DNA of 15,259 bases from Candidatus Neoflavobacterium equi. GTDB lineage: Bacteria; Bacteroidota; Bacteroidia; Flavobacteriales; Flavobacteriaceae. The notes beneath the pieces were generated by a model. The model worked only from the letters and a program-made list of their open reading frames with translations. It did not search any database and was not told where the DNA came from. The stretch covers positions 1-15,259 of the forward strand of contig JAGHSS010000204.1 in NCBI GenBank assembly GCA_018065745.1. Direction: 5' to 3'. The stretch's first letter is position 1. Each line of letters begins with the position of its first letter. This document shows, piece by piece, positions 1 through 15,146 of the stretch. Both the position numbers and the translations under genes were made by a program.

Positions 1-513
1 ATATTAGATCACGCTACAACTAAAACCTATATGAAAGGGGAAATTGTCGCTGATGTTCACAGCAATAATACGCCTGCTTCAAACAAGGTTTACTTTGTGG
101 AAAGTGGTATTGCACGCACATTTTATTATAAGGATATCAAAGATATTAGCCATTATTTTTTTACTGAAAACACGTTTAAATTAAACGTAGATATCTTGAC
201 AAATAAGAAGGAATCTCCCTATGGTTTCCAAGCTTTGGATGCTTGTGTGATCACAGAATTTCCCTATGATGTCATTCAACGCCTTTCAGACAGTCATATT
301 TCCATCAACAAATTGATCCAAAAATTAATGTTGGACGTCATCTTCAATTTCTCAAGCAGACTTTATGATATGCAATTTGAAAATGCGAATGAACGTTATC
401 ATAATTTCATACAATCTCATCCAGAAATTCACGCCAAAGCCTCTTTGGGACATATTGCTTCATACCTGGGTATTTCACAACAAACACTGAGTGTGATCAG
501 AGCAAATAAATAA
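1..513 (+). CDS. Crp/Fnr-family transcriptional regulator, 5'-truncated by window edge
   Basis: The reading frame is open from base 1, so the gene starts upstream and about 170 C-terminal residues are present; the ATG at 31 is internal, not a start. The visible part holds the end of a cyclic-nucleotide-binding-type beta-roll (VYFVESGIARTFYYKD, then ISHYFFTENTF), a long dimerisation helix, and a C-terminal helix-turn-helix ending IASYLGISQQTLSVIR. This matches the Bacteroidota branch of Crp/Fnr regulators, which usually lack the cAMP-contacting residues, so the ligand is unknown. Relatives commonly end the recognition helix with LSRIR, whereas here it reads LSVIR. It lies 104 bp upstream of an efflux operon in the same orientation with a perfect palindrome between them, which suggests, without proving, that it controls those genes. 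Family assignment is firm; target is inference. Confidence 0.85.
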   Translation: MLDHATTKTYMKGEIVADVHSNNTPASNKVYFVESGIARTFYYKDIKDISHYFFTENTFKLNVDILTNKKESPYGFQALDACVITEFPYDVIQRLSDSHISINKLIQKLMLDVIFNFSSRLYDMQFENANERYHNFIQSHPEIHAKASLGHIASYLGISQQTLSVIRANK

Positions 514-550
514 CTTGAAATAGTGCTGAGGTATGATATTTCCAATGTTT

Positions 551-566
551 TTTAAGATATCTTAAA
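551..566. promoter_or_regulatory. Perfect 16-bp palindrome, candidate operator for the efflux operon
   Basis: TTTAAGATATCTTAAA is a perfect inverted repeat of two 8-bp halves with no spacer, lying between the regulator stop and the membrane-fusion gene start, 51 bp before that ATG. A weak -7-like element GAATTTTG (588-595; consensus TAnnTTTG) follows, with no convincing -33 at the right distance. The position suits a dimeric regulator, perhaps the adjacent Crp/Fnr protein. An AT-rich chance palindrome cannot be excluded. Confidence 0.4.
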
Positions 567-617
567 TTTTTTTTGGTCCATTATATCGAATTTTGTAATC
601 TAAAATTATAGCACACT

Positions 618-1655
618 ATGAATAGTAAACCCATTTGTCTATTAGCTCTATTGACTGTGATGACATTTTCATGTGGTCCAGATAATAAATCTTCTGTGGC
701 TGAAGTTGTTCAGCCAATTTCTATTAAAACAGCTCCGGTTTCTACTTCAGAGACTTCTGGTTCACTTCAACTCAGTGGTAATATTGAAGGAAACAAAACG
801 GTAAAACTTGGTTTTATGGTGGCTGGAAAATTACAAACTTCTCCTAATACAGAAGGTCAACTGGTTAAAAAAGGGCAGTTGATTGGAAGTTTAGATCCTT
901 CAAATTATGCTATAGCTAAAGAATTAGCTGACGTTCAAGTAAGACAAGTACAGGACGAATACAACCGTCTTAAAATATTGTTTGAACGCAATTCACTTAG
1001 TGAAAGTGACTTTAAAAAAGTAAACTTTACTTTGGATCAAGCAAGAACACAACAAAAACTTCACACAAAAAATTTAAGCGATACAAAATTGTATGCGCCT
1101 ATGGACGGTATTATTCTCAAAAAGATATCTGAAGTAGGAGAGATTGTTGGTACAGGAATTCCCGTGGTGGTTTTGTCTGACATCAGCAAGGTAAAAGTAA
1201 ATGCCTATGTGCCGGAATCTGATTTGGGTGCTGTAAAAATTGGACACAAAGCTACCGTTACAATTGCAGCTTTGGGGAAAGATTTTGACGGGTTGGTTAC
1301 TGAGGTTGGTGCAGCAGCAGATCCAACATCAAGAGCTTTTACAATCAAAATTGAATTGAACAATCCAAATATGATCATCAAACCTGGAATGGTAGCAGAA
1401 ATTGCTGTTCAAACTGGGCAAACTAAGAGTGCCATCACTTTACCTGTTGAAACGGTCTTGAAAGACGTGAATGGAGAAAGTTATGTATATGTGGTAGATC
1501 CAAAAAGCAACAAGGCTTTTAAACGCAAAATTGCGCTTGGAGCAATGGATCAAAACAAGATCCAAGTTTTAAGTGGTCTTGAAGTTGGCGAACAACTGGT
1601 TGTTGGTGGACAAAACAAATTGACAGAAGGATCTGCTGTACAAATCATAAAATAA
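618..1655 (+). CDS. RND efflux periplasmic adaptor (membrane-fusion lipoprotein)
   Basis: This 345-residue HlyD/AcrA-type adaptor bridges the inner-membrane pump and the outer-membrane channel. The N-terminus is a lipoprotein signal with lipobox residues TFSC, so C19 is the predicted lipidated cysteine. The first lipoyl half is at about 55-95 (VAGKLQTS... EGQLVKKGQLIGSLD), an alpha-helical hairpin at about 95-155, and the second lipoyl half follows (KLYAPMDGIILKK). Next come a beta-barrel domain (VNAYVPESDLGAVKIGHKA) and a membrane-proximal domain up to the C-terminus. It is the first gene of the operon; the pump starts 5 bp after its stop. The substrate cannot be read from the sequence. Confidence 0.93.
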   Translation: MNSKPICLLALLTVMTFSCGPDNKSSVAEVVQPISIKTAPVSTSETSGSLQLSGNIEGNKTVKLGFMVAGKLQTSPNTEGQLVKKGQLIGSLDPSNYAIAKELADVQVRQVQDEYNRLKILFERNSLSESDFKKVNFTLDQARTQQKLHTKNLSDTKLYAPMDGIILKKISEVGEIVGTGIPVVVLSDISKVKVNAYVPESDLGAVKIGHKATVTIAALGKDFDGLVTEVGAAADPTSRAFTIKIELNNPNMIIKPGMVAEIAVQTGQTKSAITLPVETVLKDVNGESYVYVVDPKSNKAFKRKIALGAMDQNKIQVLSGLEVGEQLVVGGQNKLTEGSAVQIIK

Positions 1656-1660
1656 GACGT

Positions 1661-4600
1661 ATGAATTTTGTTGAAAAATCTTTAAAATACAAACAGGTCA
1701 CCCTGTCTGTCCTCTTTTTATTGTTTGTGGTTGGGGTGAATTCCCTGTTGAATATGCCGCGAAGAGAAGATCCAAAAATTACCATCAGACAAGGATTGGT
1801 TATGGCGTTCTTCCCAGGGGCTAACGCAAGTCAAGTTGAAAGTCAGGTCACAAACAAATTAGAGCAATACCTCTTTGAATTTGAAGAGGTGAAAAAAGCA
1901 AAAACCTATTCCACGACTAAAGACGGTTCTGTTGTAGTTAACGTGGAACTGAATGAGAATGTCAAAAACCCAGATGTTTTCTGGAGTAAATTGAGACACC
2001 AACTCTTGGTTGCAAGACAATTGGACTTGCCTAAAGGAGTGGTTGGTCCCTTGGTCAATTCTGATTTTGGTGATACAGAAGCCATGGTTATTGGTCTGGT
2101 GAGCAACCGTGCCTCTTTTGACGAACTCAAACAATACACTTCCAAATTGGAAGACCGCTTGAGAACCATTCCTGCTGTATCTAAAATCAAACGCATTGGC
2201 GAACAAAAGGAAGAGATTGTCGCTATGGCCAACTCTCAAAAGTTAACTCAATATGGGGTGAACTTAAAAGATGTGATTACCATTATGCAATCTCAAAACT
2301 TGATTCACGCCACTGGGGATATCAAAACAGATAACAACAAAACAAATTTATATACTTCTGGATATTACAACACTCAAAACGAAATTGAAAACCAAATTAT
2401 AGGGGCTTCAAAAACGGGTGAAATTGTGCGTTTAAAAGACGTTGCAGAGGTGAGTAGGGGTTATGCAGACCCAACGTCTAAAGCAACTGTAAACGGAGAA
2501 AAAGCGATGCTTGTTTCCATACAGATGCAAGAGGGAAACAACATTGTTAAATTTGGGGAAGAAGTCAACAAGATTATTGACGAACTCCAATTGACAATTC
2601 CCTCTGATGTGAAGTTGATCAAAGTAGTGAACCAACCTGAAATGGTGGATCACAACATTTCCCATTTTATCAAAGAATTCTTTTTGGCTATTATCTCTGT
2701 GGTAATTGTCATCATTTTATTGTTGCCTTTCCGCGTTGCCTTGGTGGCTGCCATGGCCATACCTATGACCATTGCCGTGACCTTTGCATTGATGCATTTG
2801 TTTGGTATTGAATTGCACCAGGTTTCTCTTGCCGCTCTGATTGTGGTGTTGGGTATGGTGGTGGACGATGCCATTGTGATTGCGGACAACTATGTGGAAT
2901 TGCTGGATCATGGATTGGACCGCTGGACGGCTGCTTGGCGCAGTGCAAGTGATTTGATCATTCCAGTATTGGCTGCAACTATTACAATTATTGCCTCTTT
3001 CTTTCCAATGGTTTTATTGACTGGTGCGGTGGGTGAGTTTATTCACGCCTTGCCAATCACGGTTGCCATTGCGTTGGCATCATCTTTTATTGTGGCCTTG
3101 GTCTTAACGCCAATGTTGTGTTATTTCTTTATCAAAAAAGGATTGCACGACCACAGTGAAGAAGCAGAAAAAAATAAAAAATTCTCTCTTTTGGACAAGA
3201 TGCAAGAGGGATACAACGGCTTGTTGGACTGGAGTATCAAACACCCAAAATTGGTGGTTTGGTCCAGTTTGTCTACCATCGTTATTGCTGGGTGCTTGTA
3301 TCTTTTTGCAATCAAACAAAAATTCTTCCCTTCTGCAGAGCGCAATCAATTTGTTGTGGAGTTGTGGATGCCAACGGGTACCAAACTTGACAAGACGGAA
3401 GAAGCCATTTTAAGGGTTCAAAAAATTGTAGAACAAGACAAACGGGTGCTGTCTTATGCAACTTTTGCAGGGATGAGTGCTCCGCGTTTTTACTATAACT
3501 TTTCTCCAGAAGTTCCTGCCACTAATTATGCTCAAATACTTGTAAATACTACAGATGAGCATGCCACATTAGCCATGGCAGCTGAATTGAAGCAAAAGGT
3601 AGCGAATATCATTCCGGAAGGGACGCCACAAATTAAATTGATGCAACAAGGACAACCTTTAAAAGCTCAGGTGGAAGTGCGTGTCATTGGGGAAGATTTA
3701 AATGTGATCAAGCAACTGGGAGATACCATCAGTCAAATTATCAAGGCTGAAAAAGGAAGTTATTTGGTGCGCAATGATTTTAGAGAAGACAGTTATGGAT
3801 TGAACATCCAACTTAAGCCAGAGGCAGAACGTTTGGGATTCACGACAGAAAGTATTTCTAAAATGGTGTATACCGGTTTTTCTGGTGCTCCAGTAACAAC
3901 TATATATGAAGGGAAAAATCCAGTGCAGGTCAAATTCAGATTGGATGAAAAGGACCGTGGCTCTTCAAGTGATTTAAACAATTATATGATTGCCTCACCG
4001 GTGACCGGATCTAGCGTTCCTGTGCGTCAAATTGCCAATTTGGTTCCAGAGTGGCAAAGTGGTCAAATCATGCACAGAAATGGAGTGCGAACGTTGACGG
4101 TTCAATCTGAAACAACAGAAGACTTATTGCCTTCACAATTGCTTAAAAAAGTGCAACCTAAGATTGACGCCATCAAATTGCCAACGGGTTACCGCTTGGA
4201 ATATGGAGGTGAATATGCCAATAAAAAAGAAACTTTAGGTCAGATGATTGCTGTTTTGGGCATCAGTTTGGTGTTGATTTTCTTTATTCTTTTGTTCCAA
4301 TTTAGAAATTTAAAGGAGGCTGCTATCATTATGTTGACCATTCCTTTGAGTTTGCTAGGTGCTCTTTTTGGACTGTACATCACGGGGAATAACTTTGGAT
4401 TTACAGCCTTTGTAGGATTGGTTAGTTTGTCTGGAATAGTGGTGCGAAATGCCATCATTTTAGTGGACCACACCAATGAGTTGATCAAAGATCACGGAAT
4501 GGATTACAAAGAAGCGGCTGTTGAAAGTGGTAAACGTCGTTTGAGACCTATATTTTTAACTGCTATGGCTGCTGCTATTGGAGTTTTACCAATGATTCTA

Positions 4601-4768
4601 TCTGGTTCTCCAATGTGGAGTCCGCTGGCTTCTGTAATTGCCGTTGGGGTGATTTGGAGTATGGTCATGGCTTTGTTGACTGTTCCTGTGTTGTACATCA
4701 GATGGATGAGACCAACAGACTTTGAAGATTATGCAGTGGAATTAAATAAAAATGAAGAAAATGAATAA
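1661..4768 (+). CDS. RND-family efflux transporter, inner-membrane pump
   Basis: This 1035-residue protein has full RND length: a first transmembrane helix at about 12-31, a large periplasmic porter loop, a membrane block from about 335, a second porter loop, and a closing membrane block from about 855. The TM4 proton-relay motif GMVVDDAIVIADN places the acidic pair at D402 and D403, equivalent to D407/D408 of AcrB. In TM10 the motif GIVVRNAIILVDH has R929 where AcrB has Lys940. It probably exports small molecules using the proton gradient as a homotrimer; sequence alone does not separate drug from other substrates, and the HME metal-pump signature is not obvious. The first bases of the channel gene overlap its last 17 bp, indicating translational coupling. 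Confidence 0.94.
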   Translation: MNFVEKSLKYKQVTLSVLFLLFVVGVNSLLNMPRREDPKITIRQGLVMAFFPGANASQVESQVTNKLEQYLFEFEEVKKAKTYSTTKDGSVVVNVELNENVKNPDVFWSKLRHQLLVARQLDLPKGVVGPLVNSDFGDTEAMVIGLVSNRASFDELKQYTSKLEDRLRTIPAVSKIKRIGEQKEEIVAMANSQKLTQYGVNLKDVITIMQSQNLIHATGDIKTDNNKTNLYTSGYYNTQNEIENQIIGASKTGEIVRLKDVAEVSRGYADPTSKATVNGEKAMLVSIQMQEGNNIVKFGEEVNKIIDELQLTIPSDVKLIKVVNQPEMVDHNISHFIKEFFLAIISVVIVIILLLPFRVALVAAMAIPMTIAVTFALMHLFGIELHQVSLAALIVVLGMVVDDAIVIADNYVELLDHGLDRWTAAWRSASDLIIPVLAATITIIASFFPMVLLTGAVGEFIHALPITVAIALASSFIVALVLTPMLCYFFIKKGLHDHSEEAEKNKKFSLLDKMQEGYNGLLDWSIKHPKLVVWSSLSTIVIAGCLYLFAIKQKFFPSAERNQFVVELWMPTGTKLDKTEEAILRVQKIVEQDKRVLSYATFAGMSAPRFYYNFSPEVPATNYAQILVNTTDEHATLAMAAELKQKVANIIPEGTPQIKLMQQGQPLKAQVEVRVIGEDLNVIKQLGDTISQIIKAEKGSYLVRNDFREDSYGLNIQLKPEAERLGFTTESISKMVYTGFSGAPVTTIYEGKNPVQVKFRLDEKDRGSSSDLNNYMIASPVTGSSVPVRQIANLVPEWQSGQIMHRNGVRTLTVQSETTEDLLPSQLLKKVQPKIDAIKLPTGYRLEYGGEYANKKETLGQMIAVLGISLVLIFFILLFQFRNLKEAAIIMLTIPLSLLGALFGLYITGNNFGFTAFVGLVSLSGIVVRNAIILVDHTNELIKDHGMDYKEAAVESGKRRLRPIFLTAMAAAIGVLPMILSGSPMWSPLASVIAVGVIWSMVMALLTVPVLYIRWMRPTDFEDYAVELNKNEENE

Positions 4769-6083
4769 GATCAATATATCTTCTTTGGCCTTGTTTCTAG
4801 CTCTTGTTACTGGGGTGAAAACTGCTGCTCAAGAAAGGGAAGTGATTGGTTTGGAAACTGTAAAACAGGCTGCTTTTGAAAAAAATCACCTGTTAAAAGT
4901 GAAACAATACCAGTTGGAAGAAAAATTGGAAAAAGTTCAAGAAGACAAAATTAAAAGACTGCCTGCATTGAATGTCAATTCCAATTACCAATACAATGTC
5001 AATGTTGGGGCGCTAACCATTCCTGCGGGATCTTTTGGAAGCTTGCCTTTGGGACCTAACACGGTGATTGCCTTGCCAAATGAAAACTTTAAATACGACA
5101 TTGGAACACACCACACGTTCAACGCATCTGCGGTTTTGTACCAACCTTTGACCCAACAATTCAAAATTGGTTCTGCTGTCAAAGCTGCAAAATTGGATGC
5201 TGAGGTTGCAAGGCTTGAGGCTGACAAAGTGCAATTGCAGGTAACCAATGGGGTGGAGAAATTATATTATGGCCTTTTGGTAAACCAATACAGACAACAG
5301 GAGGCGGGTTTGAAAAAGCAAGTTGCAGCATTGAAGCTGTATGATGTGGAAAGTGCGCTTTTAGCAAAGAAAACGGTTGACAATAGCGCTGTTGGATTGC
5401 GTGCTTCTTTGGCAGATGCTAACCAAGAACTCTTGAAGTTGCAAATGGAGGCTGAGGATTATTTAGCAGACTTACAACAGTTGACAGGATTGGATCTATC
5501 TGACAAGAAATTAGCTCCTGCTGCCGCTGTTTTAACTATGGAAGAGACTACTGAATCAGCTCCTAAAAACGTTGATGTAGCGTTGGCTAAACTGTCTATA
5601 GAAAAGGCTGCTGTTGGGAAAAAGGTGGCGATGCAAAACAATTTACCTGACGTTGGCGTTTTTGTTGGATATGCTTACCAATTGGGAAGTGTGTTGATGC
5701 CAGAAAATAATCCATTTGCTGGGTTATCTCTGAAGTGGGATGTACAGGGGATTTTGAGCAACCGTCACGTGGCTAAACAACGTGAGTTACAAATGGCTCA
5801 GGCGGCTGAAAACGTGGCTTACACGGAGGAACAATTGGCGGTGAACCGCGGTAAAAATCAACGCAAAACCAACCAGGCAATGCAGTTGGTTGAGGTGGCA
5901 AAACAGGCGAGAACCTACCGTACTGAAGAGCTTAAAATTCAAAAAGACCGTGCATTTGCTGGGTTGAATAAGCCGATTGATGTGCTGGAAGCAGAAGCTA
6001 ATTTTTACAAGTCTGAAGCTGATTATTATGCGGCTTTGTTGCAATTAAAAGTGATACATGCAGATTATAAATTACTGGAGTAA
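4752..6083 (+). CDS. TolC-like outer-membrane efflux protein
   Basis: This 443-residue outer-membrane channel subunit would complete the tripartite pump. A Sec signal peptide (LALFLALVTGVKTAA, cleavage likely after A26, before QE) is followed by two OEP-type repeats rich in long amphipathic helices (for example AKLDAEVARLEADKVQ and AKQRELQMAQAAENV) and beta segments (NVNSNYQYNVNVG; DVGVFVGYAYQLG). The start overlaps the pump gene by 17 bp; an in-frame ATG at 4761, giving a protein three residues shorter, is an equally plausible start. It is the last gene of the operon, with a strong terminator about 85 bp downstream. Confidence 0.92.
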   Translation: MKKMNKINISSLALFLALVTGVKTAAQEREVIGLETVKQAAFEKNHLLKVKQYQLEEKLEKVQEDKIKRLPALNVNSNYQYNVNVGALTIPAGSFGSLPLGPNTVIALPNENFKYDIGTHHTFNASAVLYQPLTQQFKIGSAVKAAKLDAEVARLEADKVQLQVTNGVEKLYYGLLVNQYRQQEAGLKKQVAALKLYDVESALLAKKTVDNSAVGLRASLADANQELLKLQMEAEDYLADLQQLTGLDLSDKKLAPAAAVLTMEETTESAPKNVDVALAKLSIEKAAVGKKVAMQNNLPDVGVFVGYAYQLGSVLMPENNPFAGLSLKWDVQGILSNRHVAKQRELQMAQAAENVAYTEEQLAVNRGKNQRKTNQAMQLVEVAKQARTYRTEELKIQKDRAFAGLNKPIDVLEAEANFYKSEADYYAALLQLKVIHADYKLLE

Positions 6084-6166: not shown

Positions 6167-6200
6167 AACGACCGATTCTATGAATCGGTCGTTTTTTTTT
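6167..6200 (+). terminator. Intrinsic terminator of the efflux operon
   Basis: A perfect 12-bp stem, AACGACCGATTC paired with GAATCGGTCGTT, closes a 3-nt loop (TAT, 6179-6181) and runs directly into a tract of nine T residues. This is a textbook rho-independent terminator on the + strand, 83 bp after the channel gene stop. Confidence 0.93.
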
Positions 6201-6399: not shown

Positions 6400-6422
6400 T
6401 TATTTAGACTTATTAAAAATAA
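6400..6422 (+). promoter_or_regulatory. Operator-like dyad A upstream of the haem receptor
   Basis: A 23-bp site: left arm TTATTTAGA, 5-bp spacer, right arm TAAAAATAA, an imperfect inverted repeat. It ends 5 bp before the -7 element and would cover the -33 region of the receptor promoter. Three sister sites lie at 6448-6470, 15153-15175 and 15211-15233. Placement on haem-uptake promoters suggests an iron-responsive repressor such as Fur; the regulator's identity is inference. Confidence 0.65.
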
Positions 6423-6427
6423 TAATT

Positions 6428-6435
6428 TACATTTG
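6428..6435 (+). promoter_or_regulatory. Bacteroidota -7 promoter element of the haem receptor unit
   Basis: TACATTTG matches TAnnTTTG exactly. The -33 region is weak (TTTAG at 6403-6407, about 20 bp upstream, in place of TTTG), as might be expected of a regulated promoter. Transcription would begin near 6439, giving a leader of about 40 nt that contains operator-like site B and leads to the ATG at 6481. Confidence 0.65.
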
Positions 6436-6447
6436 CTGCAACAGTTG

Positions 6448-6470
6448 TTATTTAGATTAAATAAAAATAG
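6448..6470 (+). promoter_or_regulatory. Operator-like dyad B in the receptor leader
   Basis: Left arm TTATTTAGA, spacer TTAAA, right arm TAAAAATAG. All 23 bases are identical to the site at 15211-15233 upstream of hmuT, while the bases on either side differ. It lies just downstream of the predicted transcription start and 10 bp before the start codon, a position where a bound repressor would block RNA polymerase. Confidence 0.68.
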
Positions 6471-6480
6471 TATTGCAAAT

Positions 6481-8589
6481 ATGAAATATGCGTTGTTTTT
6501 GTCTTTCCTGTCTGGGATGAATGTTTTGATGGCTCAAGAGGGGGATAGTTTGTCTGTTTTGAAGATGGATGAGCTGATTATTTCTGGCCAATACAACCCT
6601 CAAACGGTGAATAAATCCATTTATGAGGTGCGTGTGATCAACCGCGAAATGATTGACAGACAGGCGGGGAATAATCTGGCTGATTTGTTGAATCAAACGC
6701 TGAATATGAACATTATTCCCAATGCGAACACGGGGAAATCTGGTGTTCAAATGTTTGGATTAGACAGTCAATATTTCAAGATTCTAGTGGATAATATTCC
6801 GCTGATAAACGACGAAGGTCTTGGTAATAATACGGATTTAACGCAGATAAACCTGGATGATGTTCAACAAATTGAAATCGTTGAAGGTTCTATGGGAGTG
6901 GAGTATGGTGCCAATGCTATTTCTGGGATTATTAATATAATAACCAAAAAAAGTGTACAACATAAATGGGTGATTTCGCCCATGATTCAAGAGGAAACCG
7001 TGGGGAAGGAATACAATTGGCGCAACCAGGGGCGGCACATTCAGTCTCTGAAAGTGGATCACAACATCAGTGATCGTCTGTTTGCAAATGTGACCTATAC
7101 GCGCAATGATTTTATGGGGTTTTGGAACGATTACCACGGGAAATTTCACCTGGAAAACGACGGTAAAAGGGGCTTTGAATGGCTGCCAAAAAGACAACAT
7201 ACCGCCAAGGGGATTTTGCGCTATAAACACGATAATTACCAGCTGTTTTACAAATTGGAATTCTTTAATGAGGGCATCAAAAGATATAGTAATGAAGTGT
7301 TACAAAATTATGATCCCGCAACAGAAACTGACCAGCCGGTGGGGAGTGATGCCAAATTTAAAACCCACCGTTGGGTGCACCACTTGAATGCTTCAGGGCG
7401 TTTTGAAGACGTTGTAAACTATGATTTTTCTTTCTCATTGCAACAGCAAAAAAGAGCGGTTGAGCAATTTCAATACGACCTGAGAAAAGACGAAAAATTT
7501 GATGCTTTGAGTCAAATATACGAGAGTCGAAAGGGGTATTATTCCAAAGGGAATTTCAGCAATTTTATAGAAAATAAAACTTTTGACTTCCAAATGGGTT
7601 ACGAATTTTCAGTTATGGATGGATATGCATCTTCTCTGGCTGGGACGTTTGCTGACCCCATCAATAAGAAGCTGGAAAACTATGACGTCTTTGCGTCTTC
7701 AGAAATTACACTTTCCAAAAAACTGTCCTTAAGACCGGGCGCAAGGGTGCTTTTTTCTCCTCAATTTGACAACCAAGTGGCCTGGTCCATGAGTGCAAAA
7801 TACTTGTTTGAAAAGGGATATGAGTTGCGTGCCATTTTGGGAAGTTCGCCCAGATTGCCCAATTATGAGGAGTTGTATTCCTATTTTGTCGATGTGAATC
7901 ACAACGTTCAGGGAAACCCAAATTTAAAACCTGAACAGGGGAAATCTGCATTTTTACACCTTAAAAAACAGTTTGACTTCCAACCAAATGCTGCCCTTCA
8001 ATCCAAAGTATCTGCATGGTATATTGACGTGAAGGACAAGATTGATTTGGTGGTGGTTGAAGTGGCGCCTTTGGCTTATTCTTACCGCAATATTAACGCT
8101 TACAAAACTTTTGGTTTTACATGGACCAATAACATAAGATATAATGATTTTACAGCCGGTATGGGGGTTACTTATGCTGGGGTATCTCAAGAATTAGAAG
8201 CACAATCCAATCAAAAGGCAGACTTTTTATTTGCTGCTCAGTTTAATGTAAATGCGTCTTATCCGGTGCCTACTACTAAAACCGTTTTTTCAGCATTTGT
8301 CAAGTATAACGGTCCTATAAATCAATTTGTTCAACGACAAAATGAATTAAACGAGACTGTTTTCATCAAGGGAAGACAGGATGGCTTTACTTGGTTTGAC
8401 GCTTCCATTAAACAGCGATTTCTACAAGACAAATTGGAGGTGACTGCTGGTGCTCGCAATTTGATGAACATCAAAAGTATCAACACAACTGCTACCAATG
8501 CTGGGGCTCATGATGCTGCTGCTAGTACGCTGATGTTGGGGTATGGCAGATCCTATTTTTTAAAACTATTGTATAAAATAAACCTATGA
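6481..8589 (+). CDS. hmuR: TonB-dependent outer-membrane haem receptor (HmuR-like)
   Basis: This 702-residue receptor would import haem across the outer membrane using TonB energy. A start at the ATG at 6481 gives a clean signal peptide (MKYALFLSFLSGMNVLMA, cleavage before QE) and leaves the promoter upstream. An upstream in-frame TTG (6433) falls inside the -7 element and is rejected. The plug domain spans about 40-155 (VINREMIDRQAGNNLADLL; VDNIPL; QIEIVEGSMGVEYGANAISG), followed by a 22-strand-type barrel ending YFLKLLYKINL. A FRAP-like segment SPRLPNYEELY (456-466) and an NPNL box (479-482) surround H474 (VNHNVQGNPNL), the pattern of haem receptors whose barrel His lies between FRAP and NPNL. 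Its stop overlaps the HmuY-like start by 4 bp (ATGA), tying it to haem capture. Similar motifs occur in some other TonB-dependent receptors, so the substrate rests partly on context. Confidence 0.88.
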   Translation: MKYALFLSFLSGMNVLMAQEGDSLSVLKMDELIISGQYNPQTVNKSIYEVRVINREMIDRQAGNNLADLLNQTLNMNIIPNANTGKSGVQMFGLDSQYFKILVDNIPLINDEGLGNNTDLTQINLDDVQQIEIVEGSMGVEYGANAISGIINIITKKSVQHKWVISPMIQEETVGKEYNWRNQGRHIQSLKVDHNISDRLFANVTYTRNDFMGFWNDYHGKFHLENDGKRGFEWLPKRQHTAKGILRYKHDNYQLFYKLEFFNEGIKRYSNEVLQNYDPATETDQPVGSDAKFKTHRWVHHLNASGRFEDVVNYDFSFSLQQQKRAVEQFQYDLRKDEKFDALSQIYESRKGYYSKGNFSNFIENKTFDFQMGYEFSVMDGYASSLAGTFADPINKKLENYDVFASSEITLSKKLSLRPGARVLFSPQFDNQVAWSMSAKYLFEKGYELRAILGSSPRLPNYEELYSYFVDVNHNVQGNPNLKPEQGKSAFLHLKKQFDFQPNAALQSKVSAWYIDVKDKIDLVVVEVAPLAYSYRNINAYKTFGFTWTNNIRYNDFTAGMGVTYAGVSQELEAQSNQKADFLFAAQFNVNASYPVPTTKTVFSAFVKYNGPINQFVQRQNELNETVFIKGRQDGFTWFDASIKQRFLQDKLEVTAGARNLMNIKSINTTATNAGAHDAAASTLMLGYGRSYFLKLLYKINL

Positions 8590-9983
8590 AAATTTTCAAA
8601 TCCCTATTGATATTATTTGTGCTGTTGTCGCAAATTTCTTGCAACGACAATGATGCTGTAGCTTCTCAAGATTTTGTGATTGCATTTAAAGAACAGTCTG
8701 TTGATTTTTCAACGATTGAAAACTCCAAAACTATACAACTTACATTTTCTGAAAAAGCGGCATACGCCGGTTCTGTCACCTTGAATTGGACGGCAGATCA
8801 AGCGACTTACAACACAGATTTTGAGACGTTTCCCAACGCTTCATCTGGTCAATTGACCTTGGATTTTGCAGCTGGTGCAGCTGGTGTTTCCTTTGAATTT
8901 AAAAATTTAATTTTTCCTTTTGACCGTAGTGATAAGGCTGTAACTTTTAAAATTACTTCCATCAATTATGGTGCTCCAGCAGTGATTCAAGGGTACAGTA
9001 GTTTGTTGGTTTCTTTTGATCGTGCCATTGGGGGAACGGTACTTCCAGATGTGGGGGGACCAAATCAACCCAATCAGGTCTTTGTGGATTTGAGTACCAA
9101 TCAGGTTGTTTTGAGTAGGAGAGACTTATGGGATTTTGGATTTTACAGCGGCAGTGAAGATCGCGTGGTCTTGAACGGGTCGCTTTATATGGCGGCAACG
9201 GCCTTGGATCAAAACAATATTGACGCAGTGACTCCAGCCTCTGTTCAAGGACTGATTAACCAAGTGGCTGTGGGAACGTTTGACCCTACAAATGAAAACT
9301 ATATTGACGATCCCAAAGGGGATATTTCAGAAACAGCGATTGCTGAAATTTCTGCCAATACTGCTGACAATAAGGTGTATCTAGTCAATATGGGCTATGA
9401 GATTGGTACCGCAACGCCTCCTGTTGGGAGTGTCGCTATTGCCGGTGCTTCACGTGGATTTAAAAAAATACAGATTCAGAAAACAGCTGCGGGTTACAAA
9501 TTGCTTTATGCCAATTTGGAAGACACAACACACCGTGAAATGGACATTCAAAAAAGACCAGATTACAACTTCACTTTTGTCAGTGTTACCAACCACAACC
9601 AACCTCAGGTTGAACCTTTGAAAGACAAATGGGATTTGTGTTTTACAGTTTTTACAAATGTGATTCCGGGTAATGGATCTTATGGATATTCAGATTTTGT
9701 GCTGTTTAATCGCAAAGCCGGGGTGAAAATGTATCAAGTGAACACGACTCAAGTGAGTTATGCCAACTTTAATGCGTCCCATTTGGAGGAGCAACGCTTT
9801 GTTTTGGATCAACGCGTGATTGGTGCTGACTGGCGTGATGTCTTTACCGGTGGTGCTTTTACAGACCGCTTTTACATTTTGAAAGACACGGATGGCAATG
9901 TGTACAAAATCAAAATGCTATCCATGATCAATACGTCGGGTTGGAGAGGATATCCCTCTTTTGAATACCGATTGGTGGAATAA
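8586..9983 (+). CDS. hmuY: HmuY-family haem-binding lipoprotein, large form
   Basis: This 465-residue lipoprotein presumably captures haem at the cell surface and hands it to the receptor encoded just upstream (4-bp ATGA overlap). The lipobox ends SQISC, so C19 would be lipidated. It is followed by NDND, acidic residues like the export tags of Bacteroidota surface lipoproteins. Residues about 28-145 form a beta-rich domain somewhat like Calx-beta (YNTDFETFP; LTLDFAAGAAG). Residues about 160-465 show HmuY features: VFVDLSTNQVVLSRRDLWDFGFY, a second core KWDLCFTVFTN (348-358), and DRFYILKDTDGNVYKIKML. Two WD-F cores and a length about twice that of P. gingivalis HmuY point to an internal duplication. 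The only histidines are H316, H337 and H399; H316 and H337 are candidate haem ligands, but not assignable with certainty. Confidence 0.85.
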   Translation: MKIFKSLLILFVLLSQISCNDNDAVASQDFVIAFKEQSVDFSTIENSKTIQLTFSEKAAYAGSVTLNWTADQATYNTDFETFPNASSGQLTLDFAAGAAGVSFEFKNLIFPFDRSDKAVTFKITSINYGAPAVIQGYSSLLVSFDRAIGGTVLPDVGGPNQPNQVFVDLSTNQVVLSRRDLWDFGFYSGSEDRVVLNGSLYMAATALDQNNIDAVTPASVQGLINQVAVGTFDPTNENYIDDPKGDISETAIAEISANTADNKVYLVNMGYEIGTATPPVGSVAIAGASRGFKKIQIQKTAAGYKLLYANLEDTTHREMDIQKRPDYNFTFVSVTNHNQPQVEPLKDKWDLCFTVFTNVIPGNGSYGYSDFVLFNRKAGVKMYQVNTTQVSYANFNASHLEEQRFVLDQRVIGADWRDVFTGGAFTDRFYILKDTDGNVYKIKMLSMINTSGWRGYPSFEYRLVE

Positions 9984-10015
9984 ATTAAAACTATTTAAAA
10001 TTAAAACAGATACTT

Positions 10016-11248
10016 ATGAAAAAGAAATTACTTTCTATGGCACTACTACTAGGTGCTTTCACAATTCATGCGCAGGTGGTGACGCATACAGTAACCATGG
10101 GGGCGGGTTCAGGAAACAATGTGTTTTACAAAATAAATACCCAATCTGAAACCAGTTACAACAACAACGACTGGGACCTGGCTTTTTACAGAGATAGCTC
10201 CAGACAAAAAGGCATTAGAATTAATGACGGTAAGGGGTTGACTCTTCATGAGGTGAGCAATAATATCAACGATTGGAATACGGTTTCAATCGGTGATGTA
10301 TCTGATGAAAATGCACTTTACAATTCTGACATCACTTGGGCTGATGGTGCTTTTGATGCAGGTTCAGCTCAGTTTGGTTGGGGGGTGTACAACATTTCAA
10401 CTCATGCGGTAACGGGAAGCGTGGTCTTTATCATAAAATACCCAAACAACCAATTTAAAAAGGTGAAGATCAACAGTTTTTTGGGTGGATACAATTTCAC
10501 TTATGCAAATTGGGATGGTGCTGCTTGGGGACCTGATATCACGCAGGAATTGCCAAACACAGCAAATGCGAACAACTATTTCAACTACTTTAATTTAAAC
10601 ACCAATACAGCAGTAATTGCGGAAGCAGATAAAACGGCATGGGATTTAGAATTTACAAAATATACAGGAGATGTTCCCACTTTTGACGGTACGTTGATGA
10701 AATATGTGGTGACAGGTGTTCTTCACAATCCTAACGTCACGGTTGCAAAATCTCAAAACATGGAAACGGGCGCTTTTAGCGAAGAGATAAATGCCATTGG
10801 TTACAACTGGAAAACGTTTAACGGTGCAGATTACAGCGTGGATTCAGCAACCAATTACTTTGTAAAGTATGCTGATGCGACTGTTTACAAACTTAATTTT
10901 CAAAGTTTCTCAGGTACTTCTACTGGAACAACTGTGTTCACAACAGAAGATGTAACTGCGTCGTTGAGCACGTCAGATCCTTTGGCACAAGTTCAATTTG
11001 GAGTTTTTCCTAATCCGTCTACAAACAAGAGGGTTAACCTTCTTTTAGATCTTAAAAATACAGATGCTGCGGGCTTAGAAGTTCAGATTTTCAATACAAA
11101 TGGGGGCTTAGTTCACCAAGAACAATATACTGATGGAAGTGGCTTTTACAATAGAGAACTGGACCTTTCTAAATTGTCTTCAGGAATTTATTTAGTCAAA
11201 ATTCAATCCGGTAGCTATGGAGCTACCAAAAAATTAATTCTTAACTAA
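10016..11248 (+). CDS. Secreted HmuY-like protein with T9SS type A sorting domain
   Basis: This 410-residue protein has a Sec signal peptide (MKKKLLSMALLLGAFTIHA, cleavage before QV). HmuY-like segments follow: VFYKINTQ and DWDLAFYRDSSRQKGIRIN (52-70), FKKVKINSFLGGYNFTYANWDG, a second core AWDLEFTKYTG (209-219), and NYFVKYADATVYKLNFQSF (280-298). The last 90 residues or so (about 321-410) are a T9SS sorting domain: FGVFPNPS, VQIFNTNGGLVHQEQ, ELDLSKLSSGIYLVKI, then a terminal KKLILN. It would cross the outer membrane through T9SS and be released or anchored at the surface. The order of segments parallels the preceding lipoprotein, so the two look like paralogues. It starts 32 bp after the lipoprotein with no terminator between, so it is probably co-transcribed. 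A soluble or surface haem carrier is inference. Confidence 0.82.
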   Translation: MKKKLLSMALLLGAFTIHAQVVTHTVTMGAGSGNNVFYKINTQSETSYNNNDWDLAFYRDSSRQKGIRINDGKGLTLHEVSNNINDWNTVSIGDVSDENALYNSDITWADGAFDAGSAQFGWGVYNISTHAVTGSVVFIIKYPNNQFKKVKINSFLGGYNFTYANWDGAAWGPDITQELPNTANANNYFNYFNLNTNTAVIAEADKTAWDLEFTKYTGDVPTFDGTLMKYVVTGVLHNPNVTVAKSQNMETGAFSEEINAIGYNWKTFNGADYSVDSATNYFVKYADATVYKLNFQSFSGTSTGTTVFTTEDVTASLSTSDPLAQVQFGVFPNPSTNKRVNLLLDLKNTDAAGLEVQIFNTNGGLVHQEQYTDGSGFYNRELDLSKLSSGIYLVKIQSGSYGATKKLILN

Positions 11249-11338: not shown

Positions 11339-11371
11339 AAAAGGGACGGTTTAAATTAAACCGTCCCTTTT
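11339..11371. terminator. Bidirectional intrinsic terminator between convergent haem units
   Basis: A 16-bp inverted repeat, AAAAGGGACGGTTTAA and its complement, is separated by a single A at 11355. Reading right, the stem ends in TTTT then GCTTTTTG; reading left, it ends in TTTTT. It lies 90 bp past the T9SS protein stop and 65 bp past the stop of the convergent HemS-like gene, so it can serve both units. Confidence 0.9.
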
Positions 11372-11436: not shown

Positions 11437-12462
11437 TTATATCAAGTCTTTTACAATTTCTTGCCAAGCGGCTAATTCAGGAATTCCAGGCTTGCGTTTT
11501 CCAAAAAATTGAACAATAACGTCTCCCATTTCATTAAATACCTCAATGGAAGTGACTACTCCGTCTGCCGTTGGTTTTCTGACCAACCACGTTTGGGAAA
11601 TTTTGGACATGTCCAAGTGTAGGTTGAAGTCTGGGTCCATGATGTTGAACCACTGTTCGTGCCACAACGTCTTTTTTATTGGACCGGTATGGATTTGAAT
11701 GATCCCTTTGTTACCTACAAAAACCATGATTGGCAATTGGGTTTCTGCTACTTTTTCCAACATCTTTACAATGCTGTCCTTGTTGATTGGTTTCGCATAA
11801 TAGTGATCTGGAGCCAAGCGCAACGCCTGAGTTCTAGAAACTTGGAATTTTCTTAGCAGCCCAAAAAAGTTATGGGTGTCTTGTAAATTTTTCCATTCGT
11901 TTTGAAATCCAAAAACATCAATTTCACCATCCGCTTTTTCAATCACGTTGGGAATAGATGGCGTTATGGTTAGATTTACATCCTGCTGCGGACTTTTATA
12001 TTTTTCAACTAATTTTTCAAAGGCCGTTGCATCGCTGTCTTTGGTCAAGTAAATTTTGTGTATGGCTTCTCCGTCTTTTCCAAAGAATTGAAAGCTTTTT
12101 CTGTCTCCTTCAGACACGGCAAAAGCAGAGACCCATTGGTTGAGGAAAATTCTTAAATCAATATCTTCTCCTATAAATAGCTGTGCATGCGTAGAGGTAA
12201 AATCTGCGTTTAAATACACTCCTTTTCTTTCGTGTACTGCTTCATTGTTTCTTGATAAAGCCATCACCTTACCCAGTTGTTCGATCTCTTTTAAAAGCGC
12301 TTCAAAGTGAGGTTCCAAAAGGGTTACTCCCTCATTTATGTTTAGTGCTAACAACTCCACCTCACTCACACCAAGGGCAAAAGCTGCGTTTCTGATGCGC
12401 AGATGTGGGTTGTTTTCTTTTAGTTTATTCCATTGTTCTTTTAAAGAAATTGTGTTGTTCAT
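11437..12462 (-). CDS. hemS: HemS/ChuS-type cytoplasmic haem-binding/degrading protein
   Basis: This 341-residue protein of the HemS/ChuS/HmuS family would take haem delivered by the ABC transporter in the cytoplasm and store, relay or degrade it, the family being reported in each role. Two similar halves are visible, as usual for the family: an N-terminal half with RNAAFALGVSEVELLAL (24-40), and a C-terminal half with DTHNFFGLLRKFQVSRTQALRLAPD (195-219), MVFVGNKGIIQIHTG (246-260) and TWLVRKPTADGVVTSIEVF (291-309). H197 in DTHNFF matches the proximal haem ligand of HemS (His196). The start MNNTISL at 12462 is chosen because an upstream in-frame ATG at 12522 would run 49 bp into hmuV. It begins 11 bp after the hmuV stop. 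Not to be confused with P. gingivalis HmuS, a CobN-like protein. Confidence 0.92.
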   Translation of the reverse strand: MNNTISLKEQWNKLKENNPHLRIRNAAFALGVSEVELLALNINEGVTLLEPHFEALLKEIEQLGKVMALSRNNEAVHERKGVYLNADFTSTHAQLFIGEDIDLRIFLNQWVSAFAVSEGDRKSFQFFGKDGEAIHKIYLTKDSDATAFEKLVEKYKSPQQDVNLTITPSIPNVIEKADGEIDVFGFQNEWKNLQDTHNFFGLLRKFQVSRTQALRLAPDHYYAKPINKDSIVKMLEKVAETQLPIMVFVGNKGIIQIHTGPIKKTLWHEQWFNIMDPDFNLHLDMSKISQTWLVRKPTADGVVTSIEVFNEMGDVIVQFFGKRKPGIPELAAWQEIVKDLI

Positions 12463-12473
12463 GTGTTTTGTTT

Positions 12474-13253
12474 TTAGTTCCCAAAAAGTATTAAGGGAAG
12501 GTTTGTAATTGGATTGCTGCATACCACACAGGGAAATTCATAAGCATCACTTATTATTTCTGAGGTGAGTATGTGTTGTGGTTTGTCAAAACCAAGACAT
12601 TTTCCATTTTTGAGCAATAGTATTTTGTCTGCAAAAGTACCTGCCAAATTGATGTCGTGCAACACCATGAGAACTACATTCCCTTGTGTTGCATAGTTTT
12701 TTAAAAGGTTTAATATTTTGAATTGGTGCGCCACGTCCAAATTGTTTAAAGGCTCATCTAAGATAATGGTTTTGTTGACGTGATCATTTTGGAGTTGAGC
12801 CAAGACTCTTGCCAGGTGAACACGTTGTTTTTCTCCGCCAGAAAGTTGGTTGTACGGCCTTTTAGCCAAACTTTCAATCTCCAGTAAAGACAACATTTCA
12901 GTGACAATATGATGGTCGTTTTTCAAGGGCTGTTGTTGGTAATAAGGATACCTTCCCATTCTTACCACTTCCTCAACAATTAACGGTATTTCATGCTGTT
13001 GACTCTGTGAGAACTTGGCTTTGTGCTGGGCTAATTTTTGAAGATTCCAAGTTGTGTATTTTTGGTCTTTGAGGGTAATCTCCTGTGCTTCTTTTCCCTC
13101 AATTTCATTTGACAACAAACTGAGCAAGGTGGATTTCCCAGCCCCATTGGGTCCAATTATGGCAATGAACTCTCCCGGGTGCAGGTCAATGGACACCTTG
13201 TCAATTAGTTTTCTTTGATTGCTTGTATAAGAGATCTGTTTGGCGTGAATCAT
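12474..13253 (-). CDS. hmuV: Haem ABC transporter ATP-binding protein (HmuV-like)
   Basis: This 259-residue ATPase would energise haem import through the permease. All ABC motifs are present: Walker A GPNGAGKST (34-42), signature LSGGEKQR (137-144), Walker B TIILDEP (162-168) with D-loop NNLD, and the H-loop LHD at H199. The FecE/BtuD-like arrangement fits the FecCD-type permease beside it. The start at 13253 (MIHAKQIS) overlaps the permease stop by 4 bp (ATGA). The frame is open further upstream to 13493, but that extension lies inside the permease gene, is Cys/Arg-rich and lacks domain character, so it is not used. Confidence 0.94.
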   Translation of the reverse strand: MIHAKQISYTSNQRKLIDKVSIDLHPGEFIAIIGPNGAGKSTLLSLLSNEIEGKEAQEITLKDQKYTTWNLQKLAQHKAKFSQSQQHEIPLIVEEVVRMGRYPYYQQQPLKNDHHIVTEMLSLLEIESLAKRPYNQLSGGEKQRVHLARVLAQLQNDHVNKTIILDEPLNNLDVAHQFKILNLLKNYATQGNVVLMVLHDINLAGTFADKILLLKNGKCLGFDKPQHILTSEIISDAYEFPCVVCSNPITNLPLILFGN

Positions 13254-14284
13254 ATTTTTCCTTTTTTGTATCTGATCAATAACAGTATAAAAACGGGAGC
13301 TCCCATAAATGCAGTCAGTATCCCGATGGGTATTTCTGACGGTGCAACAACCGTTCTTGAAACGGTATCTGCAACCACCATTATGAAACTGCCTAAAACG
13401 GCAGACAACGGCAATATGTACAAGTAGTTGGACTTGAAGAGTAACCTCAAAATATAAGGTACAATCAATCCTATAAAACCGATGGTTCCACAAAATGCAA
13501 CACAGGTACCCACCATCAACGCAGTGGTTATGATGATTTGGGTCTTTATTTTTTCCACGGGAATTCCCAGGTGTTTTGCGTCGTTTTCACCAAGTAGAAA
13601 AGCATTCAAAGCTTTGCCTTTTGGCAGGAGTATGCACAAGCCAACCCCGGTGACAACCGCGAGGATGGCATTCTTTGTCCAGTTGGCACCACCCAAGGAT
13701 CCTAATGTCCAAAAGGTTAAATTTCTCAGTTCTTCATCTGTAGATACATAGGTTAATAAACCCGTTGTTGCACCACAGATGGCACTGATGGCTACACCAC
13801 TGAGCAACAGCAGGACGATGTTGGTTTTTTTGTTTGTTTGCGCCATGCCATACACCAACAACATACTCAATAAAGATCCTACAAAAGACAGGATGCCCAC
13901 CATAGAAAAGTACAGCATTTCAGGTAGGTATTTTTTGATGTAACTCCCCAGGACAATGGTTATACCTGCAAAGAGAACCGCTCCAGAAGTCATCCCAATC
14001 AAATCTGGAGACGCCAATGGATTTTTGAACATTCCCTGCAAGCTCGTTCCTGAAACGGCAAGGCAACAACCCACCAAAAGTGCCATGACAATCCTTGGGA
14101 TGCGGAGGTGCATCAACACAAACCAATCCGTTTCCTTCCATGTTGTGTCTGTTTGAAACAGTTGGAAAAGGGTGTCAACAATCCCGTTTTCAAATTGGTA
14201 AACCCCCATAAACAACGTGAGCAAACTTGTGAAGAGGACCACACACAAGGAGATTAGCGTCACTGCTGTTACATTTTTTTGCAT
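13250..14284 (-). CDS. hmuU: Haem ABC transporter permease, FecCD/BtuC family (HmuU-like)
   Basis: This 344-residue polytopic inner-membrane protein has about ten predicted transmembrane segments and standard family length. Conserved stretches are LRIPRIVMALLVG (60-72), LQGMFKNPLASPDLIGM (82-98), FWTLGSLGGANW (191-202), GFIGLIVPYILRLLF (269-283, the ATPase-contact region) and SEIPIGILTAFMGAPVFILL (316-335). It would form a homodimer and pass haem from HmuT into the cytoplasm. Its ATG is one base after the hmuT stop and its TGA overlaps the hmuV ATG, so the three genes are translationally coupled. The FecCD family also serves siderophores and vitamin B12; haem is assigned from the neighbours. 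Confidence 0.93.
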   Translation of the reverse strand: MQKNVTAVTLISLCVVLFTSLLTLFMGVYQFENGIVDTLFQLFQTDTTWKETDWFVLMHLRIPRIVMALLVGCCLAVSGTSLQGMFKNPLASPDLIGMTSGAVLFAGITIVLGSYIKKYLPEMLYFSMVGILSFVGSLLSMLLVYGMAQTNKKTNIVLLLLSGVAISAICGATTGLLTYVSTDEELRNLTFWTLGSLGGANWTKNAILAVVTGVGLCILLPKGKALNAFLLGENDAKHLGIPVEKIKTQIIITTALMVGTCVAFCGTIGFIGLIVPYILRLLFKSNYLYILPLSAVLGSFIMVVADTVSRTVVAPSEIPIGILTAFMGAPVFILLLIRYKKGKI

Positions 14285-14285
14285 T

Positions 14286-15146
14286 TTATTTATTTAAAGC
14301 ATTATTCAATTCCACTACTGCCTGACCCACACGCGGACCAAAACCTGAAAGGAGTTGCCCGTCCATGGCGATGATGTTGTTTGTTTTACCTGCATTTGTT
14401 TGTTTGATTCCATCAATTTTCAAAACGCCAGCGGTACCGCCAAGGCTTTGCAAACCACTGCTAAACATCAGAATTACATCAGGATTGCTTTGAATTAAAG
14501 CTTCTGGAGTTAAAGGTTTGTAATCGGCAAAAGTGGTCACGGCATTTTTTCCGCCCGCTAATTCAATTACTTTTTCAACTGGGGTACCCGTTCCTCCAAC
14601 CATTAAATTTCCAGCTCCACGAGCATAGATAAACAATACTTTTGGTTGTTTTTTGAGGGGTTTAACCTCCCTTAGTTTTTCAGTAATATCTTGATTTAAC
14701 TTCTGTGCTATTTCTGTGCTGAATGCACCAGCCACGTCGTCAATTAAATTTTTTGTTCCCTCCACTGTATACTCTTGATTGACTGTGATCACTTTGATTT
14801 TAGCCTGTTTTATCTGCTCTTTCAAATCCGGTTGCAGTTCTTTTTCCAAGGCATATATAACGTCTGGTTTAAGGGCTAGAATTTTCTCCAAAGAGATACT
14901 TCTGATGTGGCCCAAGTCTGTAGCTGTAGTTTTGATGCTTTCAGGGTAGGTACTGGTCACGTCCACACCGATGATTTGGTGTTCTTGTCCCGCTGCGACC
15001 AATGTTTCTGTCAATGTTCCATTGAGAGATATGATTTTAACCGCTGCTGTGGGTTCTGTTGTTTTTTGATTTTCATCAGCCTTTGTTTCTTTGTTACAAG
15101 ACACCAAAAGCGCTAAGGCACTACACAGTAAAATTTGAATTTTCAT
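14286..15146 (-). CDS. hmuT: Periplasmic haem-binding lipoprotein (HmuT-like)
   Basis: This 286-residue class III solute-binding protein has a lipoprotein signal ending LLVSC (C17 lipidated), so it is probably tethered in the periplasm and delivers haem to HmuU. Family features are GVDVTSTYPESIK (60-72), LGHIRSISLEKILALKPDVIYALEKE (78-103), an AGGKNAVTTFADYKPLTPEAL stretch in the C-terminal lobe, and QLLSGFGPRVGQAV near the end. Proteobacterial relatives have Tyr as haem ligand in the corresponding GY-R motif; here the motif is GHIR, with H80. It is first in the - strand unit, with promoter and operator-like sites just upstream. Family is certain; haem specificity follows from the neighbours and motifs. 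Confidence 0.92.
   Translation of the reverse strand: MKIQILLCSALALLVSCNKETKADENQKTTEPTAAVKIISLNGTLTETLVAAGQEHQIIGVDVTSTYPESIKTTATDLGHIRSISLEKILALKPDVIYALEKELQPDLKEQIKQAKIKVITVNQEYTVEGTKNLIDDVAGAFSTEIAQKLNQDITEKLREVKPLKKQPKVLFIYARGAGNLMVGGTGTPVEKVIELAGGKNAVTTFADYKPLTPEALIQSNPDVILMFSSGLQSLGGTAGVLKIDGIKQTNAGKTNNIIAMDGQLLSGFGPRVGQAVVELNNALNK

Follow-up and report, generated by a model that had tools for sequence, protein, structure and literature searches.

Two related two-unit HmuY-type proteins with different export signals in a putative haem-uptake operon of Candidatus Neoflavobacterium equi

Background

The secreted haemophore RhuH of Riemerella anatipestifer is present in secreted material and vesicles. 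It binds haem with a dissociation constant of 3.44e-11 M, strips haemoglobin and requires His96 (PMC11967795). The haemoglobin-stripping activity is shared by homologues from R. columbina, F. columnare and F. soli. RhuA, which is encoded with the receptor RhuR, binds haem but does not strip haemoglobin. Passage of haem from RhuH to RhuA or RhuR is suggested by the authors and left open, and loss of rhuH leaves virulence unaffected (PMC11967795). In Flavobacterium psychrophilum the hfp operon is induced by iron scarcity and encodes the receptor HfpR and a protein, HfpY, that binds haem 1:1 (PMC9331221). An HmuY of Flavobacterium columnare is called secreted by the type IX secretion system (T9SS) in PMC9618737, which cites Thunes et al. 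2022. Here we analyse a related locus in Candidatus Neoflavobacterium equi. The window is the whole 15,259 nt stretch of contig JAGHSS010000204.1 (assembly GCA_018065745.1), and it has a TonB-dependent receptor gene followed by genes for an HmuY-family lipoprotein and for an HmuY relative with a T9SS sorting domain, hereafter the T9SS protein.

The analysis supports descent of these two proteins from one ancestor, a predicted fold common to both, differing export signals and membership of a single haem operon. On balance, the sequences favour a reading in which they are paralogous HmuY-type carriers of one haem operon, the T9SS protein being an outer carrier that would feed the receptor-side lipoprotein.

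Relationship of the two proteins

A preliminary description of this DNA, made from the sequence without database searches, had proposed two related HmuY-like proteins in tandem. Both open reading frames (ORFs) are found where it placed them (Table 1), and all ten segments that it quoted as shared are present in the order claimed. The relationship itself is seen in BLASTP (E 3e-5 between the two proteins) and in a profile-profile alignment that covers 263 columns with a probability of 99.0% and an E of 3.1e-18, which is above chance. The sorting domain was considered as a source of this match and rejected; the lipoprotein has no sorting-domain match in the profile search, and the aligned residues of the T9SS protein (29–311) precede the domain.

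The preliminary description did not note that the ordered segments form a two-fold internal repeat: both the lipoprotein and the T9SS protein carry two HmuY-like units in a row. Comparison with hhalign of unit 1 with unit 1 across the proteins gives 95.8% (E 3.2e-9), and of unit 2 with unit 2, 98.7% (E 2.9e-15). Lipoprotein unit 2 against T9SS-protein unit 1 gives 38.9% (E 5.3e-5) and T9SS-protein unit 1 against its own unit 2 gives 11.5% (E 6.3e-4); profile comparison of lipoprotein unit 1 with its own unit 2 or with T9SS-protein unit 2 shows nothing useful. With hidden Markov models of single units, the other protein's like unit is detected in 192 of 194, 194 of 194, 192 of 200 and all 200 sequences, versus 0 to 43 of 194–200 sequences for unlike units and none of 788 shuffled sequences. 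Judged by these profiles, like units are closer across the proteins than unlike units are, within or across them. The simplest history would be that one ancestral two-unit protein was copied, after which one copy gained the lipobox and the other the T9SS domain.

The two proteins differ in their match to the Pfam HmuY family (PF14064). The whole lipoprotein matches with an E of 3.8e-24 and 86 bits, where the cut-off is 27 bits. The intact T9SS protein of the window has no PF14064 match, and its two halves match weakly, below the cut-off (Table 1). Whole members of the T9SS family match at E ≤ 0.01 in 14 of 40 cases, and the protein of one related locus, L017, is above the cut-off at 52.2 bits. 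Halves from other loci match in 8 of 8 lipoproteins and 6 of 10 T9SS proteins. The T9SS protein is termed an HmuY relative because the window copy is below the cut-off and other family members are above it.

Structure prediction gives an HmuY-type fold for both proteins and not different folds. The solved HmuY-type chains matched by the models are 182–192 residues long. They are low in the Foldseek list (6r2h at rank 26, 4gbs at ranks 42–43) with large root-mean-square deviations, and are on top when Foldseek's own list is re-ranked with VIA-align 2. The chain alignments span both units, e.g., lipoprotein residues 145–465 with 136 residues aligned, so the models admit either of two arrangements: the units may lie side by side, or strands may be exchanged between them. 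Single-sequence searches of the PDB show no HmuY match for either whole protein and no HmuY-type match for lipoprotein unit 1; lipoprotein unit 2 has one weak match (4gbs, E 0.38).

Export signals

The lipobox with an acidic tail, proposed earlier, is present as Cys19 in QISC followed by NDND. The Cys column is highly conserved (Table 1, where the window is among the aligned sequences). With the first Cys past residue 12 taken as the lipidated one, which 4 of the 194 sequences do not have, there are at least two acidic residues within six positions after Cys in 173 of 190 lipoproteins. An acidic tail after the lipobox Cys is a surface-export signal of Bacteroidota lipoproteins. The lipoprotein is probably displayed at the cell surface next to the TonB-dependent receptor.

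The T9SS protein has the type A sorting domain that had been described for it and, judged by eye, the Sec signal. Q20 is invariant in 40 family sequences and A19 is present in at least 90% of them; PF18962 matches all 40. The same genome encodes a PorV-family protein (E 1.7e-132, above the cut-off), PorV being the T9SS component that was tested. T9SS-dependent export of the protein is predicted from these features.

Association of the genes in relatives

The neighbourhood survey proposed with the preliminary description was made by searching genome contigs with the T9SS family profile. The best 80 of 195 confirmed relatives were compared; ranking was by resemblance to the T9SS query, which biases the set towards close relatives, and three loci from the window's own genome (L001–L003) are excluded. 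The lipoprotein gene is at the T9SS gene locus in 75 of the 80 and elsewhere in the genome in the remaining 5. The 75 include L020, where the lipoprotein ORF is broken in two, and L080, which has a short lipoprotein and no receptor found. L050 and L075 are near contig ends, and missing neighbours there may be cut off.

Two gene orders are present. In 41 loci the lipoprotein gene precedes the T9SS gene in the same orientation; 40 of these have a receptor gene. The intergenic gap does not exceed 49 nt in 31 of the 39 standard co-directional loci. The other 34 loci, all in records named Chryseobacterium, Epilithonimonas or Kaistella, have receptor and lipoprotein genes that diverge from the T9SS gene; the receptor gene is between, and the lipoprotein gene is 2.2–4.3 kb from the T9SS gene. 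The association of the two genes is real.

A second survey covered 299 genomes of the window's genus, its own included. The full-length T9SS protein is found in at least 10 and the lipoprotein in at least 106; both are lower bounds because the first six candidates per genome were scored (five for the lipoprotein profile). The T9SS search was swamped by sorting-domain matches, and only the 10 matches above 400 bits are counted, with genome G261 (113 bits) kept apart. All 10 genomes with the T9SS protein also have the lipoprotein (Fisher p 2.4e-5, shared descent ignored). The other 96 lipoprotein-bearing genomes have the lipoprotein alone, so it looks like the core component, to which the T9SS protein would be a dependent accessory. 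The two surveys share material, since the lipoprotein has identical coordinates in G250 and in the genome of L017.

Some further positions of T9SS-type genes are of note. In G261 the partial match (C1:2221488-2222183, profile 186–413) is downstream of the lipoprotein gene and is possibly a decaying or divergent copy. L017, L037 and L041 have a T9SS HmuY-type gene away from the receptor gene and then, by eye, ParA-like and ParB-like genes, a second location shared in some Flavobacterium. In one Chryseobacterium locus, a further gene for a small T9SS-tagged protein of 265 amino acids (L047:8015-8812, PF18962 E 1.9e-6) separates the receptor and T9SS HmuY-type genes.

Haem context

Two receptor histidines, His202 and His490 (counted from the start at 6433), do not vary among 76 sequences, the window's among them. 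The second is within VNHNVQGNPNL, and an NPNL-type motif with a histidine has been described for haem/haemoglobin receptors (PMC9331221). A hemS, permease or RhuH homologue is found at 69 of the 80 loci.

RhuH, as a flavobacterial haemophore that is secreted and has its gene next to rhuR-rhuA, was considered as the identity of the T9SS protein. This was rejected: neither family profile matches RhuH (8XJC) at E up to 10, in contrast to the protein encoded at L004, a RhuH homologue with an E of 1.1e-96 to 8XJC and a Pfam DUF6607 match (E 8.9e-100). Through this protein, a RhuH homologue gene was identified at 34 of the 80 loci together with the lipoprotein-T9SS pair (e.g., L008:10241-11134). It diverges from the receptor gene in 18, directly follows the T9SS gene in 14 with a gap of 6–10 nt, and follows the lipoprotein gene in 2. 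No locus among the 80 has both hemS and a RhuH homologue. A DUF6607 match was not found in the window's own genome, which is 83.6% complete, so absence is not shown.

Proposed haem transfer and alternatives

In the proposed mechanism the receptor, lipoprotein and T9SS genes would be one haem-uptake operon with two paralogous two-unit HmuY-type carriers. The lipoprotein would carry haem at the receptor side, as the counterpart of RhuA in R. anatipestifer, and would be exposed on the surface by the TonB-dependent receptor. The T9SS protein would be an optional carrier further out, which is released or stays attached to the surface once its sorting domain has been removed. It would take haem from haemoproteins, or from RhuH in relatives that have RhuH, and raise the supply to lipoprotein and receptor; HemS and the ATP-binding cassette (ABC) transporter would complete import. 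Two-stage transfer from the T9SS protein to the lipoprotein is plausible, and we rank this serial order above the three alternatives that follow. A broader proposal, that such loci represent a Gram-negative outer relay of one fold in which the T9SS protein (with the unrelated RhuH at those 34 loci) passes haem to a lipoprotein paralogue at the receptor, is tentative and stands at rather less than an even chance.

Several points weigh against serial transfer. The lipoprotein is found without the T9SS protein in 96 of the 106 lipoprotein-bearing genus genomes, so the T9SS protein is dispensable there. Among the 10 genus genomes with both proteins, the genes adjoin in 4 (G000, G313, G263 and G107). 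RhuH and the T9SS protein could share one job. Deletion of the T9SS-type hmuY in F. columnare leaves growth in TYES and in iron-limited TS medium unchanged, and virulence as well; the available text does not mention haem as sole iron source in the growth tests (PMC9618737). The main weakness is that the haem role of the T9SS protein is read from sequence and the F. columnare deletion is silent.

The lipoprotein and the T9SS protein could instead feed the same receptor directly and in parallel, the former close to the cell and the latter further away, with no transfer between them. Both proteins are predicted to have an HmuY-type fold, the two genes are apart in 6 of the 10 genus genomes, and F. 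psychrophilum has one HmuY-type protein that acts together with its receptor (PMC9331221). In both surveys, genomes with the T9SS protein also have the lipoprotein (at 75 of 80 loci, elsewhere in the other 5 genomes, and in 10 of 10 in the genus), which fits an acceptor role for the lipoprotein, although a shared dependence on the receptor predicts the same pattern. Parallel supply is considered possible but unlikely.

It is very improbable that the T9SS protein is a leftover, i.e., a redundant or decaying duplicate with no distinct role. Its rarity in the genus, the partial match in G261 and the deletion without phenotype in F. columnare (PMC9618737) would agree with this. However, the protein is full-length and conserved across many genera (25 invariant columns in 40 sequences), and the pairing is retained through two gene orders.

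Conserved residues bear on whether the T9SS protein binds haem. Met202 of the lipoprotein is kept in 100% of 194 sequences and is a candidate haem ligand. In the T9SS family, His130 is the candidate ligand. It is kept in 95% of 200 sequences, and the next residue is His in 81% and Ala in the window; another point against the proposed transfer is that no His or Met, start Met aside, is fully invariant in these 200. HmuY ligands are reported as His-His, His-Met, Met-Met or none (PMC12106395).

The T9SS protein could also act as a scaffold that binds a haemoprotein (haemoglobin or other) or tethers RhuH rather than binding haem, its units being protein-binding. The T9SS family has invariant aromatic residues but no fully invariant His/Met ligand, and the gene is closely coupled to rhuH at 14 of the 80 loci. 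The retention of His130 argues the other way. Also, some HmuY proteins hold haem by its ring and do not coordinate the iron (PMC12106395); a protein that lacks such a ligand could still bind haem. A scaffold role is judged improbable, less so than a leftover.

If serial transfer is correct, the single HmuY haemophores become a multi-carrier chain in Flavobacteriia, and a recurrent T9SS cargo gains a role. Two tandem units per carrier would permit two haems per chain or unit-to-unit transfer. Serial transfer would also connect the published T9SS HmuY of F. columnare with a separately published question, how RhuH, RhuA and RhuR cooperate in R. anatipestifer. The order of transfer is directly testable because of the duplicated build and the restriction of the T9SS protein to lipoprotein-bearing genomes.

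Locus organization

The haem-uptake region in the window consists of a plus-strand gene set and a convergent minus-strand gene set (Table 1). The receptor and lipoprotein genes overlap by 4 nt, and the spacing between the lipoprotein and T9SS genes is 32 nt. The receptor gene may start at the ATG at 6481 instead of 6433. The two longest plus-strand terminator-like stems are 5' of the receptor gene and 3' of the T9SS gene. As these stems flank the three genes, a single operon is likely. Shorter stems of 6–7 pairs are within genes, and the total is 19 sites versus 8.7 expected.

Table 1. Positions of genes, protein regions and putative signals in the window
Feature	Position	Strand	Evidence
Terminator-like hairpin, 12 pairs, 5' of receptor gene	6167-6193	+	
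TTTAGACTTATTAAA, putative Fur-box-like element	6403-6417	+	
TACATTTG, flavobacterial -7-like element	6428-6435	+	matches TAnnTTTG
TTTAGATTAAATAAA, second match to Fur-box-like pattern	6451-6465	+	
hmuR/rhuR-like TonB-dependent receptor	6433-8589	+	PF00593 E 1.9e-22, PF07715 E 1.4e-18 (for 6481-8589)
HmuY-family lipoprotein, 465 amino acids, RhuA-like by gene order	8586-9983	+	
Lipobox QISC with Cys19, then NDND	8631-8642	+	Cys at column in 99% of 194 sequences
Calx-beta-like N-terminal domain, residues 28-144	8667-9017	+	
Lipoprotein HmuY-like unit 1	9033-9536	+	9033-9551 alone: PF14064 E 1.8e-13, profile 1-98 of 157
Lipoprotein HmuY-like unit 2	9537-9980	+	alone: PF14064 E 7.7e-12, profile 7-157
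T9SS-tagged two-unit HmuY relative, 410 amino acids	10016-11248	+	
Sec signal peptide, about residues 1-19 (A|Q), ends IHAQ	10016-10072	+	by eye
T9SS-protein HmuY-like unit 1	10079-10555	+	10079-10561 alone: PF14064 E 0.0045, 17.6 bits
T9SS-protein HmuY-like unit 2	10556-10963	+	10553-10963 alone: PF14064 E 2.2e-5, 25.1 bits
T9SS type A C-terminal sorting domain, residues 330-408	11003-11239	+	PF18962 E 1.8e-14, TIGR04183 E 1.4e-11
Terminator-like hairpin, 15 pairs, between convergent gene sets	11339-11371	.	found in + strand scan
HemS/ChuX-like cytoplasmic haem protein	11437-12522	-	PF05171 E 5.4e-78
Haem ABC transporter ATPase, HmuV-like, provisional gene start	12474-13325	-	NF010068 283.6 bits, cut-off 261
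FecCD-type permease	13250-14284	-	PF01032 E 1.1e-85
Periplasmic binding protein (Peripla_BP_2)	14286-15146	-	PF01497 E 3e-32

Two sequence patterns are enriched from -200 to +60 of the receptor ORF start in relatives, with 200 order-1 Markov simulations as background for both. TAnnTTTG, which we take to be the flavobacterial -7 consensus and used to label TACATTTG, is present in 72 of 75 relatives versus 18.6 expected (highest simulated count 28). A scan for sigma-70-type promoters gives no signal, with 25 sites versus 23.6 expected. The Fur-box-like pattern TTTAGA-N(2-9)-(T/A)(C)TAAA was picked after the window was seen. With the window excluded, TTTAGA...TAAA is found in 33 of 75 relatives versus 2.2 expected, and the highest simulated count is 6. 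This pattern may represent a Fur box; in R. anatipestifer a Fur box is reported between rhuH and rhuR (PMC11967795).

The Calx-beta-like domain, also not noted in the preliminary description, is seemingly absent from the shorter lipoproteins (360–377 amino acids) of the 34 divergent loci and four Winogradskyella loci, and from 50 of 107 genus lipoprotein matches, which start past profile position 100. Positions 1–6083 of the window have the end of a CRP-type regulator gene (PF00027 E 2.5e-4, below its cut-off) and then, by eye, genes for a membrane fusion protein, an RND pump and a TolC-like protein. The 12-pair hairpin follows these genes.

Comparison with described systems

The RhuH/RhuA-RhuR system of R. 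anatipestifer (PMC11967795, PMC10986502) is similar in having a TonB-dependent receptor and a membrane haem-binding protein, where RhuA is equated with the lipoprotein by gene order and not by sequence. Its haemophore gene diverges from the receptor and RhuA genes, as do the rhuH homologues at 18 of the 80 loci here. RhuH itself has no sequence relation to either protein of the pair, and the main text of the RhuH paper does not have the term T9SS (PMC11967795).

HmuY-HmuR of Porphyromonas gingivalis and the solved HmuY relatives (Tfo, PinO, Bvu) resemble both proteins in predicted fold and the lipoprotein in Pfam family, and the pairing with a TonB receptor is also similar. The solved chains are of the length given above, whereas the proteins here have two units plus a Calx-beta-like or T9SS domain. 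A T9SS-tagged form of the Porphyromonas-type HmuY is not described in the available part of PMC12106395.

F. columnare HmuY (C6N29_01035) combines an HmuY domain with a T9SS type A domain and is likened to the T9SS protein by this described architecture, not by sequence. It is the sole haem-uptake gene in the table of that paper, the main text does not have the term hmuR, and the available text does not mention a partner lipoprotein (PMC9618737). HfpR-HfpY of F. psychrophilum has a receptor and an HmuY-type protein in one operon. It differs in having a single HmuY-type protein, as far as the available text describes it, and a DoxX-family gene between the receptor and HmuY-type genes (PMC9331221); the latter is likened to a DoxX-like gene beside the receptor gene of one related locus (L004:4950-5444, PF07681 E 7.8e-4, below its cut-off).

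Parts of the arrangement are already published, namely the T9SS HmuY of F. columnare and, in Riemerella, a secreted haemophore encoded next to RhuR-RhuA. The preliminary description had called the arrangement non-standard, and within the literature covered this holds for the paired two-unit arrangement, not for its parts. No report of a lipoprotein and T9SS HmuY pair, or of a two-unit HmuY, was found in the open-access literature, covered mostly as titles and the beginnings of abstracts, so absence is not proven.

The NEAT-domain carriers of Gram-positive bacteria are one domain family in secreted and anchored forms, between which haem transfer is established. The locus described here is similar in that secreted and anchored carriers of one family would pass haem on. 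The fold and envelope are unrelated, and transfer is established for NEAT carriers and only proposed for the two HmuY-type proteins.

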